DNA of 64,000 bases from Clostridia bacterium. GTDB taxonomy: Bacteria > Bacillota > Clostridia > TANB77 > CAG-508. Where the stretch lies: the NCBI GenBank assembly GCA_017430135.1, contig JAFRNM010000008.1, positions 1 to 64,000 on the forward strand, read 5' to 3'. Both the position numbers and the translations under genes were made by a program. Shown here one piece after another: positions 12,036-24,041 of the stretch. How positions within the stretch are numbered: position 1 is the first letter of the stretch; every line of letters starts with the position of its first letter. Below the pieces are notes generated by a model. That model had not been told where the DNA came from. It searched no databases and saw only the letters and a list, made by a program, of their open reading frames with translations.

Positions 12036-12329
12036 TTAATTTTCAAGTTCTTCATCTTCATTTTCGAACTCTACATCATTATCATGTTTTTCTCTATTAC
12101 AATGTCTATGTAGTAATTGTGCATTTTCTTTAATTGTTTCTCCTCCAGATACAAATGTTTCTATATGATCAACTTCAGCATCTTTTATCCTTAATATTTC
12201 ATTTCCACAATATGAACAAACATATCCGTCATGCCATAATTCTTCTTTTGTTTCTTTAGAAAATGTTCTTTCGACTCCATAGTCACCTTTTTTACCAATA
12301 ATTTGAGAAAGTAATTCATAAACTTTCAT
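12036..12329 (-). CDS. Small HNH endonuclease-domain protein
   Basis: 97 residues with a clear HNH core: CSYCGNEIL near residue 37, then AEVDHIETFVSGGETIKENAQ and LLHRHCNREKHD, so both CxxC/CxxK zinc positions and the catalytic DHI histidine and N are present. The C-terminus is acidic. Similar cores occur at the ends of larger DUF262-type defence proteins; here it stands alone. Upstream on the same strand GGAGG is followed by a ten-codon frame (from about 12374), which could be a leader. The gene is followed by the DUF2828 promoter, so it is transcribed separately from that operon or reads into it. Confidence 0.75.
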   Translation of the reverse strand: MKVYELLSQIIGKKGDYGVERTFSKETKEELWHDGYVCSYCGNEILRIKDAEVDHIETFVSGGETIKENAQLLHRHCNREKHDNDVEFENEDEELEN

Positions 12330-12580: not shown

Positions 12581-13459
12581 ATGAGCCTTAATTTTAGTGC
12601 ATTTGAAGGAAAAAATATTTTTAAATTTGCTAAATATGAAATTAAAGAAATAGGCAAAATTAAATATATAGTTCCAGATAGTATAAATAAAAAGCACTCT
12701 AGTGGTGCTCCATTAATTGATATAGAAAAAGACTTTGAAGAATCTATTTTGATAGATTTATTAAATATTGGTAAATTAGCTTTTTATAATGAAACTGATA
12801 TAGAAAAAAATGTTTTAGACTTTGTAAATAAATATTCTACATTAGGATTAATAAATGATTTACCTTTAAATAAATACTTTTTCTTAGATGATAGAATTGT
12901 TTTAAAAGAATATAACTATATTGGAAATTCTGATTTAACAACAGTAGTAGATAGAAAGAAATATTTTAAATTATTCTTCCCTACTTGTGATGATAGTCAG
13001 ATTAAAGAATTAATTAATGAAGTAACTAAATTAGCAGAAACTCCTGCAATGGAGAAATACATTTTGTCTGATGTAAATAAATTATTAGTAGGATCAAATT
13101 TATATTGTGAACCTTTAGATATGTTTATTCAATATGCTAAATATTTATATAGTTTATTAAATAATATTTCTAATGAAGATAATTACAATATAGATGAGTT
13201 ATTAAAACAATTTGAAATTAACAATATTAAAATGACTTTATATAGAAAAGAAACTTTATATGTTGAATTTCAAATTACTTGTTTAAAGCAATATATTGAT
13301 TATTACTTTGCTAAAACAGTAGCACAAGATATTAATCTATTAAAGATATGTAAATTCTGTAATAAAGCTTTTCTTGCTGTTAATCCTAAAGCTGAATATC
13401 ATACTCCTCAATGTAAGAATAAAGCTAATGTTTATAAAAATAGAGTAAAAAATAAATAG
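12581..13459 (+). CDS. DUF6076-like protein with C-terminal zinc finger
   Basis: 292 residues with a strong AGGAGG ribosome site. The C-terminus carries CKFCNKAFLAVNPKAEYHTP followed by QCKNKANVYKNR, a treble-clef-like finger similar to those of CGNR and DUF6076 proteins (C-x2-C ... C-x3-[A/N] and a basic tail), which probably binds nucleic acid. The rest is soluble and mixed alpha/beta with no recognisable motif. It ends in tandem TAG codons, showing that TAG is a working stop here. It converges with the Thoeris-associated gene through a shared hairpin terminator. Confidence 0.6.
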   Translation: MSLNFSAFEGKNIFKFAKYEIKEIGKIKYIVPDSINKKHSSGAPLIDIEKDFEESILIDLLNIGKLAFYNETDIEKNVLDFVNKYSTLGLINDLPLNKYFFLDDRIVLKEYNYIGNSDLTTVVDRKKYFKLFFPTCDDSQIKELINEVTKLAETPAMEKYILSDVNKLLVGSNLYCEPLDMFIQYAKYLYSLLNNISNEDNYNIDELLKQFEINNIKMTLYRKETLYVEFQITCLKQYIDYYFAKTVAQDINLLKICKFCNKAFLAVNPKAEYHTPQCKNKANVYKNRVKNK

Positions 13460-13484
13460 TAGCATTTATGTGCTACTATTTATT
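13451..13484. terminator. Bidirectional terminator between convergent genes
   Basis: AATAAATAGTAGCA at 13451-13464 pairs exactly with 13471-13484 across a 6-base loop. It overlaps the 3' ends of both flanking convergent genes. Confidence 0.7.
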
Positions 13485-14029
13485 TTATCAATTGTATCAA
13501 TATTTTCTAATAATAGTTTATTATAGTCTTCAAAATCAAATATTTTAAGATATCCTTTATCTAAACAAATATCTGTAATTTCTCCTTCAAAGACCAAGAA
13601 ATCTTTAGTAACTATCTTACATTTTTCATTAAGTAAATTTTCAAGTTTTTTTAAATCTATTTTATTTTTACCTTTTAAATAATCTAAAAATCCATTATGC
13701 ATGTAATCATAAACATCATATAAATTACTATTTAAATTCCTGTATGAAGTAACATTCGTAGGCTTTACGTGTGCATTAACTATATTATCTTTATATTGAG
13801 AATATAATTTATTATTATGTATATATTTCCAATTTTTAGCTTTCTCATATTCCCTGTATTCATTTTTTAAATTATCTCTTATTTCTTTATATATAGACAT
13901 CGCATCTTTTTTATTTTTTTCTGCAGTATCTAATGCTATAAGTACTTTGGTATAATAGTATCTTACATGATTATGTATTTGATCTATTGATACATTCTCA
14001 TTAGAAAAATCAAAACAATCCAATTTCAT
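13466..14029 (-). CDS. Thoeris-operon associated protein, unknown (187 aa)
   Basis: 187 residues from the ATG at 14029, which has AGGAGG at ideal spacing; longer frames begin inside the previous gene and are unlikely. The first two thirds are charged helices with coiled-coil character (KVLIALDTAEKNKKDAMSIY, then EIRDNLKNEYREYEKAKNW). The last third looks like a small beta domain (VFEGEITDICLDKGYLKIFD). No signal or membrane segment. It follows the macro-domain effector by 25 bases as the last gene of the operon. I do not recognise the family; it may be an additional Thoeris component or simply cargo. Confidence 0.55.
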   Translation of the reverse strand: MKLDCFDFSNENVSIDQIHNHVRYYYTKVLIALDTAEKNKKDAMSIYKEIRDNLKNEYREYEKAKNWKYIHNNKLYSQYKDNIVNAHVKPTNVTSYRNLNSNLYDVYDYMHNGFLDYLKGKNKIDLKKLENLLNEKCKIVTKDFLVFEGEITDICLDKGYLKIFDFEDYNKLLLENIDTIDKINSST

Positions 14030-14054
14030 TATATACCTCCTAATAGTATATAAA

Positions 14055-14936
14055 TTAAATATTATAATTATCATACTGATACTTACAAACATAATCTATA
14101 TACTCTACAATAGTAGAAATATTAATCTTATATTTTTTTATATCTTCTTTTCTTATGCAAATTATTAATTCTTCAGCTATTTTTTTAGTATTATTATTAG
14201 CTACAAAAGAAAAAATAATTTGTTTTAATATTTCTTCACGAGAATTCGTAATTCCCATTCTTCCTGTCCCTAATAATGGAATAGCTAAAGTTTCTACATG
14301 TGCACATTCACTAATGAATTGCCATACTCTTGATAAAGCATCTGTAATATTGGTTAGATTTGGATCAACAGTCTGACCATTTGCGTTTATATTTGAATCT
14401 GCTAAAAAATAAAATCTTCTATCTTTATAATTAATTTCAACAGTAGTTCCAATCTCATATTGATTCTTCTTACTATCTTTTCTATCTTTTAATTTAATAT
14501 AATTCTTATTATTTTTTAACCCTTTCTGAATTAGAACATCTAATACATTTATGTTGTTTTTAAAATATTTATTTTGTACTTGTCCTTGTACACTTTTTAA
14601 ACTAATAAAATCATTTTCCATCTTGGTATCAAAAGTTGAATTTGTAGGAACAATTATACTTGCATTCTGTTTTAGCAAATCTCCTATAACCAATTTTATT
14701 TTTATGTCTTTATTTTTTATTAAAAAGCTATATTTTTTAGGCGGAATATTTTTTATTATTATAATTATTATTCCTAGCAAAAGAATACTAAATACTATTA
14801 TTTTTTCATATTTTTCTTCTGGTTGATAAAATAGTTTTAATAACTCATCTGCTGAACATATAATACCTATAAATGCAAAAACTTCCACAATATCTTTTTT
14901 TAATATTGGCCAAATATTTTTAAAAAAATATTCCAT
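14055..14936 (-). CDS. Type II Thoeris effector: two TM helices plus macro-like domain
   Basis: 293 residues. Two N-terminal membrane helices (about 16-34 and 44-62) are followed by a macro-like domain: IKLVIGDLLKQNASIIVPTN, later RRFYFLADSNINANGQTVD and ETLAIPLLGTGRMGITNSRE, matching the phosphate-binding loops of macro domains and of DUF6430 proteins. Type II Thoeris effectors with this 2TM-macro architecture sense a TIR-made ADP-ribose-type signal (reported as histidine-ADPR) and disturb the membrane of infected cells. The start overlaps the stop of the TIR gene by one base, so the two are coupled. Assignment to Thoeris rests on both architecture and neighbour. Confidence 0.85.
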   Translation of the reverse strand: MEYFFKNIWPILKKDIVEVFAFIGIICSADELLKLFYQPEEKYEKIIVFSILLLGIIIIIIKNIPPKKYSFLIKNKDIKIKLVIGDLLKQNASIIVPTNSTFDTKMENDFISLKSVQGQVQNKYFKNNINVLDVLIQKGLKNNKNYIKLKDRKDSKKNQYEIGTTVEINYKDRRFYFLADSNINANGQTVDPNLTNITDALSRVWQFISECAHVETLAIPLLGTGRMGITNSREEILKQIIFSFVANNNTKKIAEELIICIRKEDIKKYKINISTIVEYIDYVCKYQYDNYNI

Positions 14937-15436
14937 TATAATCCTAATTTTTGGTATACAGAATCATTATAAAAATATGCACAATGATCACCTTTTCTCT
15001 TATGTTGCTCTTCAGAATCTGGCCAATTTTCTAGAGCATATTGTAATATTTTAGCATTAAAGCTAATATGCATAGCTAAATGATCCCTAATTATTGCTGG
15101 ACATCTAATTTCATCTATTTTTCTTTTTCCATTCAAATTAACTACTATACATGGGATATCTCTTTTTATAGCTTGTTCTATCTCCCATCTTACATATTTG
15201 TATAAATATTTTGTATGTTCTCCAACTAAAAGAACAAATACTTTTGTATTTCTAAATCTTTCTTGTAATCCTGCTTTTATCGAATCCTCACTCTTATCTA
15301 AAATAGTATTTATGTCATGTGCATCATAAAAATTAAAAGAGCTGTTATCATTTTGTTTCCAAGCTTTCATTAATTCATAATATCTTAAGTCATTATCTGC
15401 ATCCATTGAAACATATACTTTATTTCTATAACTCAT
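14936..15436 (-). CDS. thsB: Type II Thoeris TIR-like sensor (ThsB family)
   Basis: 166 residues from the ATG at 15436 (AAGGAGG upstream; a longer frame would start inside that ribosome site). The fold is of the MTH538 TIR-like type (DUF1863): RNKVYVSMDADNDLRYYELM opens the domain, FYDAHDINTIL follows, then KVFVLLVGEHTKYLYKYVRW EIEQA with the conserved glutamate of the catalytic helix, and IPCIVVNLNG. ThsB proteins detect infection and make a cyclic or amino-acid ADP-ribose signal from NAD+. It sits directly before the 2TM-macro effector, which makes this a type II Thoeris system. Confidence 0.85.
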   Translation of the reverse strand: MSYRNKVYVSMDADNDLRYYELMKAWKQNDNSSFNFYDAHDINTILDKSEDSIKAGLQERFRNTKVFVLLVGEHTKYLYKYVRWEIEQAIKRDIPCIVVNLNGKRKIDEIRCPAIIRDHLAMHISFNAKILQYALENWPDSEEQHKRKGDHCAYFYNDSVYQKLGL

Positions 15437-15450
15437 TTTTTCCTCCTTCA

Positions 15451-15480
15451 TAACATAGGGAGATGACTCTCCCTATGTTA
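15451..15480 (-). promoter_or_regulatory. Intercistronic hairpin in the Thoeris operon
   Basis: TAACATAGGGAGA at 15451-15463 is exactly complementary to 15468-15480, with a 4-base loop. It covers the stop codon of the DUF3892-like gene and ends just before the TIR ribosome site. No T-run follows on the minus strand, so it probably tunes mRNA stability or coupling and does not terminate. Confidence 0.5.
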
Positions 15481-15690
15481 TCCTAAATTATTCTTTTCAT
15501 TTCCATCTGGTTTTGAAACAGGAGTATCTAAGCCATTTATCTTTCTTACATAATACTCTTCATAGTTTCCTTTTTTTATTTCTCTTACAAACTGATTTCT
15601 TGTCATTTCATGTCCGTTTGTACAATCCTTAAATCTTTCATTTCTTCCAGAATCATTTTCTTGAGTAACTTTTACTCTATGATTTTTCAT
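15478..15690 (-). CDS. DUF3892-like small protein, first gene of the Thoeris operon
   Basis: 70 residues. HRVKVTQENDSGRNERF at the start and REIKKGNYEEYYVRKING in the middle resemble DUF3892, a short beta-rich domain of unknown function often annotated near defence genes. The C-terminal tail is polar. It is the first gene after the strong promoter at 15827-15855, with AGGAGG about 12 bases before the ATG. The 5' leader of this mRNA is overlapped by an antisense small RNA. Confidence 0.6.
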   Translation of the reverse strand: MKNHRVKVTQENDSGRNERFKDCTNGHEMTRNQFVREIKKGNYEEYYVRKINGLDTPVSKPDGNEKNNLG

Positions 15691-15726
15691 CTTTTTTACA
15701 CTTCCTCCTGCTCTATAATTTGCCTA

Positions 15727-15755
15727 TTTACAAAAAGATTCTTTAATGCTATAAT
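15727..15755 (+). promoter_or_regulatory. Promoter of the antisense small RNA
   Basis: TTTACA (15727-15732), a 17-base spacer and TATAAT (15750-15755) form a strong sigma-A promoter on the plus strand. It lies inside the leader of the oppositely oriented Thoeris operon. No coding frame follows; a terminator hairpin begins 36 bases downstream. Confidence 0.65.
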
Positions 15756-15760
15756 TCAAA

Positions 15761-15813
15761 GTGTAGGATCGCAACTACAATTTTTGTTATAGCTCTGGCA
15801 GCAGAGCTTTTTC
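15761..15813 (+). ncRNA. Candidate antisense small RNA over the Thoeris leader
   Basis: Transcription from the promoter at 15727-15755 would begin near 15761 and give an RNA of about 50 bases. It has a first hairpin TGTAG / CTACA (15762-15766 with 15775-15779, loop of 8 bases) and a textbook terminator AGCTCTG-GCAG-CAGAGCT (15791-15808) followed by TTTTCTTTTT. The whole RNA is complementary to the 5' leader of the Thoeris mRNA, which starts near 15820 on the other strand. Its layout resembles countertranscribed regulators of toxic or copy-number genes. Its existence is inferred from signals only. Confidence 0.6.
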
Positions 15814-15826
15814 TTTTTGCATTTTT

Positions 15827-15855
15827 ATTATACATCTATTTGTTTGGCTTGTCAA
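15827..15855 (-). promoter_or_regulatory. Consensus promoter of the Thoeris operon
   Basis: TTGACA (15855-15850), a 17-base spacer and TATAAT (15832-15827) on the minus strand. The transcript would have a leader of about 130 bases before the DUF3892-like gene. Confidence 0.75.
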
Positions 15856-15908
15856 TAATATTAAATATTTTATTCATTATTTTTGCCATTTTTGAATAAT
15901 ATTTACTA

Positions 15909-15934
15909 AATTTGTTAAAAATATTTAACAAATT
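15909..15934. promoter_or_regulatory. Inverted repeat upstream of the ATPase gene
   Basis: AATTTGTTAAA (15909-15919) and its exact complement (15924-15934) flank a 4-base spacer. It lies about 40 bases before the ATPase start and on the far side of the Thoeris promoter, so it could be an operator for either gene set. Confidence 0.4.
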
Positions 15935-15976
15935 GTTTAATATTTATTGACTTTTTGAAAAGAGAGGTGTATAATT

Positions 15977-17281
15977 ATGATACAAAAATTAATAAATATA
16001 TGGAGTGAAAATATGGATATTAAAAGGATAAAAATTGACGGATTTAAAAATTTAAAAGATATTGATTTAACTCTAAATAACATAACTAGCTTATTGTCTA
16101 TTAATAGTTATGGAAAAACAAATACTTTGACTGCAATTATTTTTGGAATTGACTTTATTATCAGGAACAATGAAACTAGAAAAAATCAGATGATGTATAA
16201 TCCTGCAATTCCAGTAAATAAAAATTATCTTAGTAAAACATTTTCATTTGAAATAGAAGCAACTGTAAACAATGAAGAGATAATCTATGGATATTCTTTT
16301 TTGTGGTCTAAAAACAGTGAAAATGGAAAAATTATAAAGGAATATTTAAAAGTTAAGGAACCTAGTGAGTCACAAAAATTTACATTTTATATAAAAAGAG
16401 AAAATGAATCTTCCTTTTTTAAACCTTCAAAAACAGGAGCTTGCAATAAATCAATATTAATAGAAAACTATGAATTAATTTTAAATAAGATAAAAGCATA
16501 TGATGATTTATTTTATATGGAAATTATTAAAAATCTTAATCATTTAAGAATTTTTATTGATCATGATTTTAATGCTGCTACACCTTATGGAATTGCTCCT
16601 ATTTTAGATGGTGAAGTTTTTAATTATGACTTAAGTGGAAAAAACAATATTCCTACTATATTATACGATATTCAACAAAAAAGACCAGACAGATTTAATT
16701 TAATAATCAATACTTTTACTGATATCTTCCCTTCTATAGAAAAAATAGATGTTGTACAAATTCCTATTACAGTTGAGCAAAATATTAATCCAAACAATCT
16801 TGAACCTTCAAAAGTTGCTGGTAAATTTTATGCTCTAATTGCAAAAGATAAAAATTTATCTTCACCTATAGATTTTAATAATATGTCTGATGGTGCCAAA
16901 AGAATATTAAAAGTACTTACTAACCTAGAGATAGCATCTAACAACAATTTTTCAATTGTAGCAATAGAAGAACCTGAAAATTCTCTAAATCCTAAAGTAT
17001 TACAACAATATTTAATTGCTTTAAATGGTTTCGCCAAAAATATAAAAATTATTATTACAAGTCACTCTCCATACTTAATGAATTATATTGAGCCATCTAA
17101 AATATATGTAGGTTTACCACATGATAATGGTATTGCTACATTTTCAAAAATAAAAGATAAATCTGCAAATAAACTAATGGATGATGCAGAAAGTCTTGAC
17201 TTGCGTGTTGGTGATTATCTTTTTGATTTAATGAGTGGAGATGCTAGTGACTTAGAAACACTTGCTAAATATACGGAGTAA
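15977..17281 (+). CDS. OLD/PARIS-like AAA ATPase of a two-gene defence system
   Basis: 434 residues. The N-terminus IKRIKIDGFKNLKDIDLTL with the P-loop LLSINSYGKTN is typical of SMC/ABC-like AAA_15 and AAA_21 ATPases, though the first P-loop glycine is serine. Near the end come MSDGAKRILKVLTNLEIA (signature), IVAIEEPENSLNP (Walker B) and IITSHSPYLM (H-loop). Two starts have ribosome sites: the one given, and ATG at 16013 giving MDIKRIKIDGF, which matches where relatives begin. It stands three bases before a TOPRIM-like gene. Such ATPase/nuclease pairs (split OLD, RloA/RloB, PARIS) act in phage defence; the exact type is unclear. Confidence 0.8.
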   Translation: MIQKLINIWSENMDIKRIKIDGFKNLKDIDLTLNNITSLLSINSYGKTNTLTAIIFGIDFIIRNNETRKNQMMYNPAIPVNKNYLSKTFSFEIEATVNNEEIIYGYSFLWSKNSENGKIIKEYLKVKEPSESQKFTFYIKRENESSFFKPSKTGACNKSILIENYELILNKIKAYDDLFYMEIIKNLNHLRIFIDHDFNAATPYGIAPILDGEVFNYDLSGKNNIPTILYDIQQKRPDRFNLIINTFTDIFPSIEKIDVVQIPITVEQNINPNNLEPSKVAGKFYALIAKDKNLSSPIDFNNMSDGAKRILKVLTNLEIASNNNFSIVAIEEPENSLNPKVLQQYLIALNGFAKNIKIIITSHSPYLMNYIEPSKIYVGLPHDNGIATFSKIKDKSANKLMDDAESLDLRVGDYLFDLMSGDASDLETLAKYTE

Positions 17282-17284
17282 TCT

Positions 17285-17911
17285 ATGAAAAAATGTGTAG
17301 TAATATATACAGAAGGCGAAACTGATGATGAATTTTATAAGAAAGTATTGTCTACTATAAAAAGTAAAATACCAGGAAATAGGTTTAAAGTAGATGTTTT
17401 AAAATCTTTTTGTATTACAGGAATAGGAAAATTTCAAAATAAATTATTAAATAAATTCGAAAAAGAAATTGTAAATAAATATTTGAAAACTCATGAGCTA
17501 ATTGTTGTGCTTTGTTATGATACTGATGTATTTGAATTTGGAGTGCATCCACCAATTAACAGATTAAAACTCGAAAAAGATTTGATTGATAAAGGAGCTT
17601 CTAAAGTTATTCATATAAAAGCTAAGAAAAGCATAGAAGACTTTTTTATGTACGATCTTGATGGAATAATTAACTATTTAAAAATAGTAAAACCAAAGAG
17701 TTTAAAGGGTTCAACTGGATTAAAAAAATTAGAAACATTATTCTTAAATGCCAATAGAATATATCAAAAAGGCCATAAATGTTCAGGATTTATTGATTCG
17801 CTTGATATGAATACTATTTTTCCATGTATATGTGATGATATAAAACCTCTATGCACAGAATTAGGACTTGAATCAAATTGTAATTCATGTAAAAAATATG
17901 TCTCAAAATGA
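17285..17911 (+). CDS. TOPRIM/RloB-like partner with C-terminal cysteine cluster
   Basis: 208 residues. VVIYTEGETDDEFYKKVL near residue 5 and VVLCYDTDVFE near 75 give the E...DxD spacing of TOPRIM-like nucleases. SIEDFFMYD near 117 resembles the acidic helix after the DxD strand in RloB-type proteins. The C-terminus has an unusual cluster of cysteines (HKCSGF, PCICDDIKPLC, SNCNSCKKY) that may bind zinc or a cluster; I do not know it from the standard families. It is coupled to the upstream ATPase and is likely its nuclease effector. It ends with TGA, so TGA is a normal stop here. Confidence 0.65.
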   Translation: MKKCVVIYTEGETDDEFYKKVLSTIKSKIPGNRFKVDVLKSFCITGIGKFQNKLLNKFEKEIVNKYLKTHELIVVLCYDTDVFEFGVHPPINRLKLEKDLIDKGASKVIHIKAKKSIEDFFMYDLDGIINYLKIVKPKSLKGSTGLKKLETLFLNANRIYQKGHKCSGFIDSLDMNTIFPCICDDIKPLCTELGLESNCNSCKKYVSK

Positions 17912-17921
17912 GGCATATTTT
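17894..17921 (+). terminator. Terminator of the ATPase/TOPRIM operon
   Basis: AATATG-TCTC-AAAAT-GAGG-CATATT followed by TTTTTATT overlaps the end of the TOPRIM-like gene. Confidence 0.55.
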
Positions 17922-18089
17922 TTATTACATTTTATCTATTTTTTTATTGTTCTATATTAGTTATTTTATGAATCTTATTGTAATCTTTGTAACACTTGAA
18001 AAATAAACAGAATCTACTAGTAACCATCAATATTTAGATGTATAATTATCACAATTAAATATGAAACTCTCACCCATGATTATGCCTGA
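17922..18089. other. Intergenic AT-rich stretch
   Basis: No gene, RNA or clear repeat seen. It leads into an integrase relic and probably represents the decayed edge of the mobile island. Confidence 0.3.
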
Positions 18090-18218
18090 CTAGAGCATCC
18101 TAGATTAATAAGTGCAATGCTACACAAGGCAGTATATTGGCAACTTACACCTTATAATCCTGCTGAAAGAGTCCAACCACCTAAAGTATCTAGAGCAAAA
18201 CGTAAATTTTATTATGAA
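18090..18218 (+). pseudogene. Integrase relic (end of core-binding domain)
   Basis: After a TGA at 18087 the frame reads LEHPRLISAMLHKAVYWQL and then TPYNPAERVQPPKVSRAKRK. This is the highly typical end of the core-binding domain of Tn916/phage-type tyrosine recombinases (AVxWxLxxxNPAxRVxPPK). Nothing before or after it is integrase-like. It mirrors the truncated integrase at 8505-8981 and marks the right side of the defence island. Confidence 0.65.
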
Positions 18219-18292
18219 ACAGTTCTAACAAGCTATTTGTACAAGCTGATGGCAAACTTATGCATCCTTCACAATTATGAGAAAAACTCCCC

Positions 18293-18625
18293 TTATTCCT
18301 CCAAATAATTAACCACTTTCCCATGTTCCTTAGCATATTTAATTTCTGATTTTGTACTATCGCCAATATACCCATTAACATTAATAACAAAAATTTCATC
18401 TGCCATATCAATTTTTCTTTTATGCATATCATCTAGCATTTCTTTAGTTTTAGTTAAAGTACCTTCATCCATATTTTCCCATACTTCCTGGTCACCAGAA
18501 TGACCAAAAAGACCTACAGAAATAACTATATATCCTTTTAAAGTTAAATCTTTTTGAGCTTTCATAAATTGATCCTTAAATTTTGTTGAACCACATAATG
18601 TTACAACTTTATATTTTCCTACCAT
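18293..18625 (-). CDS. Nucleoside 2-deoxyribosyltransferase-like protein
   Basis: 110 residues. KVVTLCGSTKFKDQFMKAQK at the start is the signature of a family related to nucleoside 2-deoxyribosyltransferases and DUF4406 proteins. KRKIDMADEIFVINVNGYIG and STKSEIKYAKEHGK in the second half match its conserved D...E layout. These proteins cleave or transfer sugars of nucleosides, but the substrate is unknown here. It has GGAGG before the ATG and is followed by the right-hand integrase relic. Confidence 0.7.
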   Translation of the reverse strand: MVGKYKVVTLCGSTKFKDQFMKAQKDLTLKGYIVISVGLFGHSGDQEVWENMDEGTLTKTKEMLDDMHKRKIDMADEIFVINVNGYIGDSTKSEIKYAKEHGKVVNYLEE

Positions 18626-23076: not shown

Positions 23077-23961
23077 CTATTTGTTATAATTGAAATTATT
23101 TTTTATTATTTTTATTAAATTTTTTAATTCATTAGAACTATTATCTCTTCTATAATAAATACCAATTTCTGTTGATGGAATTTTAAATTCTGTATTTAAC
23201 TCTGTAAAAAGTTTTTCTTGAATTTCTTGACTTAAATACTTGCAATTAGCTATTCCTACACAATTATCATATTGTTGAATAATCTGAGCCATACTTAAAG
23301 AATCTATTCTTTTAATTTCATTATTTAAATTGTTTTTTTGTAATTCTTGTAAAAAAACATCGGTTGAATTATTTTCTCCTCTAGGCATATAAATAATTTG
23401 ATTATCTAAATCACTAATTTTTATTTTATTTTTACTACATAATTTTGATTTATTGTTAGCAATTAAAACATATTCAAAATACCCCAAACTAATAAATTTA
23501 TACTTTTTACTGTCATATTCATTTTCTTTAAATTTTCTTAAAATTGCTATATCAAAATTTTCATCATTTAAAGGAAAATTCAATACCTTAGAATTATCCG
23601 TAATTGTAATAATTTTAGCATTTTTATTTTTTAAATAAAATTCTGCAATTGATTTGCTTAAAAGTTTACTGAGCATTGTAGCATATGTTCCTAATCTAAT
23701 TTCGCAAATATTTAAATATTTTTTATCTATTTCCACAATTTTATCAATAGATGGTGATATCTCATTAAATAATTTATTTCCAGCTTCAGTTAATTCCATT
23801 CCTTTTTTTCTATTAAATAAAACTAAATTTAATTCATTTTCAAGATTTTTAATATGTCTTGTAACAGCTGGTTGAGAAATATTTAAATTTTCACTTGCTC
23901 TTGTAATATTTTGTACTTTTGCCACTTCAATAAATATTTTATATAATTCTAAATTGGCCAT
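23077..23961 (-). CDS. LysR-family regulator
   Basis: 294 residues. The N-terminal winged helix reads FIEVAKVQNITRASENLNIS then QPAVTRHIKNLENELNLVLF, which is standard for the family. The C-terminal effector domain (from about 90) has IRLGTYATMLSKLLS and YEYVLIANNKS. It lies just upstream of the split chromate transporter and may control it, although LysR targets are usually divergent. The effector is unknown. Confidence 0.9.
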   Translation of the reverse strand: MANLELYKIFIEVAKVQNITRASENLNISQPAVTRHIKNLENELNLVLFNRKKGMELTEAGNKLFNEISPSIDKIVEIDKKYLNICEIRLGTYATMLSKLLSKSIAEFYLKNKNAKIITITDNSKVLNFPLNDENFDIAILRKFKENEYDSKKYKFISLGYFEYVLIANNKSKLCSKNKIKISDLDNQIIYMPRGENNSTDVFLQELQKNNLNNEIKRIDSLSMAQIIQQYDNCVGIANCKYLSQEIQEKLFTELNTEFKIPSTEIGIYYRRDNSSNELKNLIKIIKNNFNYNK

Positions 23962-24041
23962 TTCTTCTCCTTTTAAATTATTTTATTATACTTTTATTAT
24001 TTTACATAATTATATGATAAATTACTTATTTTGTAAATAAT

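Follow-up and report, generated by a model that had tools for sequence, protein, structure and literature searches.

A stretch of 64,000 nucleotides (hereafter the window) from the small, AT-rich genome of a Clostridia bacterium (1.74 Mb, 21 contigs) probably carries a cis-antisense RNA gene at positions 15727-15819, within the leader of an operon whose first gene encodes a DUF3892 protein. Judging from the sequence, this gene would restrain the operon in cis. Furthermore, the leader, the antisense RNA, and DUF3892 would together constitute a mobile control cassette located ahead of exchangeable defense cargo, which in this instance is a type II Thoeris system.

The antisense promoter (TTTACA-17-TGCTATAAT; 15727-15755, plus strand) is formed by TTTACA at 15727-15732 and TATAAT at 15750-15755 with a 17-nt spacer, and scores 11 of 12, in agreement with an earlier note on this DNA. 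It also has an extended -10 element (TGC, 15747-15749) that is absent from that description. The perfect terminator that the earlier note placed downstream, AGCTCTG-GCAG-CAGAGCT at 15791-15808 followed by the T-run TTTTTCTTTTT, is indeed present, although its stem begins 35 nt after the -10 element rather than the claimed 36 nt. The opposing sense promoter of the operon (15855-15827, minus strand) is, as had been asserted, a consensus TTGACA-17-TATAAT (12 of 12), and it is the top-scoring site between 12 and 20 kb.

When start sites are set by rule approximately 7 nt past each -10 element, the two transcripts in the window begin about 58 nt apart. The predicted antisense RNA is then about 50-55 nt long (15762-15815, plus strand), with its ends estimated from the -10 element and the T-run, respectively. 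With starts so placed, it lies entirely within the 5′ leader of the operon mRNA, which extends from the promoter to the DUF3892 start (approximately 15820-15691, minus strand), and is fully complementary to it, as had been proposed for an RNA of about 50 bases. Two hairpins are predicted for this RNA (-15.8 kcal/mol, z -2.8): hairpin I, TGTAG-GATCGCAA-CTACA, at 15762-15779, and hairpin II, which is the intrinsic terminator with its T-run, at 15791-15819. The unit therefore has its own promoter and terminator opposite an mRNA leader, the arrangement by which a cis-antisense RNA gene is recognized. Rfam covariance models gave nothing above the gathering score at this leader, either in the window or in nine relatives.

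The operon itself includes the Thoeris genes, as the earlier note stated, but the first gene was overlooked. This gene (15478-15690, minus strand; PF13031, E 2.7e-7) encodes a DUF3892 protein of 70 amino acids, and thus the leader is that of a DUF3892-ThsB-ThsA-ORF4 operon. ThsB is a Thoeris TIR protein (14936-15451, minus strand; PDLC00429, E 1e-74; PF08937 above the cut-off), and ThsA is a type II Thoeris effector (14055-14936, minus strand; PF20016, E 1e-45, 155.9 bits; PDLC00414) that carries a Macro domain and hydrophobic N-terminal segments, the latter read from the translation by inspection. A TIR-like ThsB together with a Macro-domain ThsA bearing such segments identifies the system as type II Thoeris. 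ORF4, the last gene (13466-14092, minus strand), has no Pfam or PADLOC match. A 14-bp palindrome without a T-run occupies the DUF3892/ThsB junction (15450-15481, minus strand).

On the other side of the leader, an AAA_21 ATPase gene (15977-17281, plus strand) that is a conserved partner of the group A cassettes described below is transcribed divergently, and is followed by a second divergent gene (17285-17911, plus strand) to which no family was given. The promoter of the AAA gene, TTGACT-17-TATAAT (window 15947-16013), ends 1 base ahead of the first ATG, and the ATG at 16013, preceded by GGAGTG, is the likelier start. Beyond the operon are a gene of unknown function (12581-13459), which has a C-terminal cysteine motif and 88% DNA identity to the CBASS cassettes L140 and L141, and a gene (12036-12329) whose small HNH product weakly matches PtuB.

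AT-rich DNA is expected to yield promoter-like and terminator-like strings, and the 60 promoter-like sites scoring at least 9 of 12 in 8 kb do not exceed the number in shuffled sequences. However, the strength of both sites, the scarcity of such pairs, and their recurrence in related cassettes make chance a barely credible explanation for the unit. Matches to TTKACA-N14-TGNTATAAT with at most one mismatch number eight in the 64 kb where 0.59 is expected, and the antisense promoter is one of only two exact matches. A terminator scan of 8 kb found six where 1.1 are expected. The window has two strong facing promoter pairs whose start sites are separated by 40-80 nt. One is the pair at the antisense unit; the other, at 23919-24037, has its start sites 48 nt apart and lies just upstream of a LysR-type gene. 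A 34-nt match to the antisense promoter elsewhere in the same genome falls inside a helicase-like gene and so was attributed to chance, and comparison of the leader DNA with plasmids and phages returned only AT-rich chance matches.

Facing promoters and an antisense terminator are present in 10 distinct DUF3892 leaders, which fall into two sequence groups and derive from two bacterial families within one order, and four of which are closely related. In each leader, an antisense TTTACA-17-TGnTATA faces a sense TTGACA-17-TATAAT, the latter in weaker form in L122 and L245, and the spacing between start sites is 57-66 nt throughout. Both elements are thus kept with their target in all ten leaders, and the assignment of an antisense RNA gene, read from the conservation of both promoters and the antisense terminator, is well supported.

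Group A includes the loci L120-L123, in which DUF3892 is 87-93% identical to that of the window and the entire leader is kept, including hairpin II and the loop core of hairpin I (L120 and L121 are the same over the stretch compared). In this group, the antisense promoter is unchanged at its 15 core positions, and approximately a fifth of the remaining leader positions vary. The window and L123 differ at 8 of 17 fourfold sites and, among the discriminator positions, at 4 of 6. Because the group A sequences are close, promoter invariance alone is modest evidence. Moreover, each antisense hairpin of L123 contains a single C-A mismatch, which in hairpin II weakens the terminator, and on the mRNA strand both positions would pair as G-U. 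Thus, the conserved element in group A could be an mRNA hairpin.

Some other DUF3892 genes do not share the full arrangement. It is absent from L124, whereas L242 has a terminator without a clear promoter and L125 has only a variant promoter. Phage DUF3892 homologs lack it at the threshold used, save for one weak antisense site in L154, and a search for DUF3892 in plasmids gave no match. Given that phage genes and some other bacterial DUF3892 genes are without this layout, it is a property of the cassette type and not of the DUF3892 family.

Group B comprises L126-L131, whose DUF3892 proteins are 40-44% identical to that of the window, and L245, which comes from another family of the same order. 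Their leaders cannot be recognizably aligned with those of group A. Nevertheless, they have both promoters: the sense one is TTGACA-17-TATAAT, except in L245, where it reads TTGAAA-17-TAAAAT, and the antisense one combines TTTACA-17 and TGn with TATATA, TATATT, or TATAAA. The predicted antisense RNA is about 90 nt long and consists, in most leaders, of a short hairpin (TACAAAA-GAAA-TTTTGTA or similar), then a long stem whose loop contains an invariant GCCA, and U-rich sequence. When six leaders are aligned, both partners have changed in 6 of the 13 pairs of the terminator stem, and pairing holds in 88.5% of cells. The covariation score of this stem is attained by none of 500 shuffles and exceeds that of every slid version.

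This stem spans the sense start site, such that one of its arms is the sense -35/-10 region. Because that arm is upstream of the sense start, the mRNA cannot form the group B stem, whereas the antisense RNA can. The stem is therefore the best evidence from these alignments that the antisense transcript, rather than mRNA structure, is likely to be under selection. Wobble pairs in the stem favor the antisense strand by 9 to 4, too weak a strand bias to add to this argument. Several of the L126-L130 leaders also have, just ahead of the DUF3892 ribosome-binding site, an inverted copy, CTATTTAC, of the antisense -35 region, which reads GTAAATAG on the sense strand; the mRNA could pair there.

A search of 390 genomes of the family for CTATTTACAA-N10-TAATGNTATA found eight exact sites outside DUF3892 leaders, all eight of them without a facing promoter, and most are ordinary promoters ahead of a ribosome-binding site and a gene. 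This indicates that the motif is a promoter type of these bacteria, and that the facing layout is what is particular to DUF3892 leaders. As a marker for the cassette, the antisense promoter motif was discarded, since it matches many ordinary promoters and is unspecific alone.

The earlier note read the unit as a dedicated antisense regulator of Thoeris, and a type II Thoeris operon does follow the leader in the window. A ThsB alignment scanned against 84,980 genomes yielded 80 loci. The criterion applied was a pair of facing promoters with scores of 11 or more and a start-site separation of 40-80 nt. None of the 79 related ThsB loci has such a pair upstream of ThsB, whereas the pair in the window passes, although this is a strict test because the threshold misses four weaker group B pairs. 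The closest relatives (L039, L040, L041, and L051; ThsB 75-82% and ThsA 54-64% identical) have neither DUF3892 nor such a leader, and in L039-L041 a promoter-like stretch is seen by eye immediately ahead of ThsB. Absence of the promoter and terminator from related loci that keep the operon had been named beforehand as the outcome that would count against a Thoeris regulator, and this is what the survey found. Together with the other cargo located behind the identical type of leader elsewhere, these observations leave a dedicated Thoeris regulator very improbable, and a Thoeris-wide antisense feature is, at the level of sequence, already refuted as a general rule. That antisense pairing governs a membrane-killing effector, as the earlier note put forward, is an inference. 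Four other Thoeris loci (L095, L102, L103, and L109) each have two neighboring TIR genes resembling ThsB.

The genes that follow DUF3892 differ among the cassettes. Window positions 15479-17993 are 80-88% identical to L132, L134, and L135 across DUF3892, the leader, the AAA gene, and its neighbor, but the match breaks off at the DUF3892 stop codon, beyond which the cargo is different. In L120-L123, the place held by Thoeris in the window is occupied by a gene of about 298 codons without a Pfam or PADLOC match, which is broken in some copies. The conserved 298-amino-acid protein behind DUF3892 in L132-L135 is a candidate new defense gene. Group B cargo includes CBASS in three layouts: a type II-like system with CD-NTase, E1-like, and JAB-like proteins and a SAVED membrane effector (L143, at locus L131), a SAVED-HNH effector with a CD-NTase (L140 and L141, at L128 and L129), and a SLATT-like two-transmembrane effector with a CD-NTase (L249, at L245). 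The remaining group B cargo consists of an unknown gene with a SIR2 protein of the candidate system PDC-S25 (L142, at L130), an unassigned gene that appears HNH-like by eye (L138, at L126), and a gene for a small protein to which no family was given (L139, at L127). From these comparisons, the antisense element is seen to travel with DUF3892 as the cargo is exchanged. With regard to the idea that the 3′ end of DUF3892 serves as a recombination point, its last 40 bases are identical at 31-39 of 40 positions everywhere.

Phage-type integrase genes adjoin L132, L133, and L139-L141, and the window has an integrase remnant at 18090-18346. On this basis, the DUF3892 cassette loci probably represent the cargo regions of integrative elements. 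Pieces of the remnant within 17918-18346 of the window match the intact integrase next to L132 at 65% and 40% identity, and at the DNA level the same segment is 86-92% identical to the ends of the elements in L140 and L141.

A second structural feature is found at many DUF3892/cargo junctions. L126, L128-L131, and L245 carry a strong hairpin there, whose apex is CTTCAT...ATGAGG and which in most is followed by a T-run, and terminator-like hairpins of other sequence are found at this junction in L242 and L125. These hairpins are described from single folds, since MAFFT misaligned one row. The distance from the hairpin to the cargo start is just some tens of bases in L126, L128, and L131, which leaves little or no room for a promoter, and hence the cargo would be reached by readthrough. 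No hairpin with a U-run follows DUF3892 in the window or in L120-L123, and the gate is therefore not universal. Unlike the window, L120-L123 also have no palindrome at the junction.

We propose that the antisense promoter and its RNA, if transcribed as predicted, would restrain the operon in cis at two levels. Polymerases from the facing promoters would collide, and start sites only about 58 nt apart imply that they would interfere with each other. In addition, the antisense RNA would pair with the mRNA over its first 50-60 nt, such that the message would be lost early. Because the antisense RNA stops short of the DUF3892 ribosome-binding site, simple blocking of this site is unlikely. In most group B cassettes, the junction hairpin would act as a second gate before the cargo. 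Either less antisense RNA or more readthrough would then raise cargo expression.

Several other readings of the same elements must be weighed. The most plausible of these, though we consider it clearly less probable than antisense restraint, is that the facing promoters form a bistable switch operating by transcription interference, with the short RNA as a by-product. The constancy of the spacing and the location of the terminator at the sense start or -10 element are consistent with this possibility, and antisense reverse promoters behave in this manner in the EcoRI and Eco29kI systems (PMC12707154). However, the two hairpins and the conserved loop, GCCA in group B, suggest that the RNA itself matters. 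It is also conceivable, but unlikely, that selection acts on the structure of the mRNA leader, as 5′ stabilizing hairpins or a regulator-binding site, and that the antisense promoter is weak or accidental. The group A mRNA also forms both hairpins, the L123 substitutions retain G-U pairs on the mRNA strand only, and the hairpin I loop GTTGCGA is found again in an mRNA hairpin of L242. In contrast, an exact -35 element, 17-nt spacing, and extended -10 element are kept in the antisense orientation in two leader types, the antisense motif serves as a promoter elsewhere, and the stem of group B cannot form in the mRNA.

A still less probable alternative is that the RNA is not an antisense repressor but a functional component in its own right, such as a sensor RNA or ligand to which DUF3892 binds. 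The DUF3892 gene adjoins the RNA at every locus found, and for this domain a role in sensing RNA has been proposed, along with a meander-helix core in common with HPF and dsRNA-binding domains (PMC12419801). The order of elements in its AF2 model (pLDDT 90; three strands, a helix, and two strands) fits that description. Against this reading, phage DUF3892 genes occur without such an RNA nearby, and neither Foldseek nor VIA-align comparison of the AF2 model with solved structures produced a convincing match. In the literature searched, which covered few subscription titles, DUF3892 is mentioned in three papers. Even if antisense restraint is correct, as we favor, an action of DUF3892 on the leader or antisense RNAs is speculative.

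Control by cis-antisense RNA is already known as such, and a cassette that precedes varied defense cargo would be a variant of it. Type I toxin-antitoxin systems likewise have a small cis-encoded RNA with a terminator hairpin opposite its target mRNA (PMC6563280). The present arrangement differs in that the RNA overlaps the mRNA 5′ end and the first gene of the target encodes a soluble, hydrophilic 70-amino-acid DUF3892 protein instead of a small hydrophobic toxin. Plasmid copy-control antisense RNAs are also short, have hairpins with kept loops, and are complementary to a leader, but their target is a replication gene and not an operon of defense cargo.

Closer to bacterial immunity, the restriction-modification operons of EcoRI and Eco29kI contain reverse promoters that drive antisense transcription and interfere with a convergent promoter (PMC12707154). 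Those promoters are similarly within a defense operon, but are found in the endonuclease gene of a single system, whereas here a short terminated RNA is located in a leader that serves many systems. Fusions of DUF3892 to Min-Wnt effectors likewise place the domain in an immune setting, and a connection to RNA has been proposed for it (PMC12419801); here DUF3892 is instead a separate first gene behind an antisense RNA leader. The functionally closest known systems are CapW/BrxR, CapH+CapP, and CapK+CapS, DNA-binding protein repressors that are released by DNA damage (PMC9122588, PMC9122601, PMC13373217). As with the DUF3892 cassette, they are conserved control modules before varied immune operons, CBASS and Thoeris included. 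They differ in being protein repressors, whereas the conserved parts here are RNA elements and DUF3892, with no DNA-binding protein seen. There is a fair chance that the cassette is an RNA-based counterpart of these controllers.

By title or abstract, the literature searched (again with few subscription titles) describes no antisense RNA with Thoeris or CBASS. We suggest, as a tentative possibility about which we are slightly more doubtful than hopeful, that the cassette is a new immune controller, in which facing promoters, an antisense RNA, a possibly RNA-binding DUF3892, and a hairpin gate form a mobile RNA-based unit controlling unrelated and exchangeable anti-phage systems. If true, toxic immune systems would have a controller at the level of RNA, ahead of interchangeable CBASS, Thoeris, and other cargo. 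DUF3892, known thus far only by prediction, would gain a testable role, and the cassette would explain how a defense system newly acquired by a mobile element can be regulated immediately.
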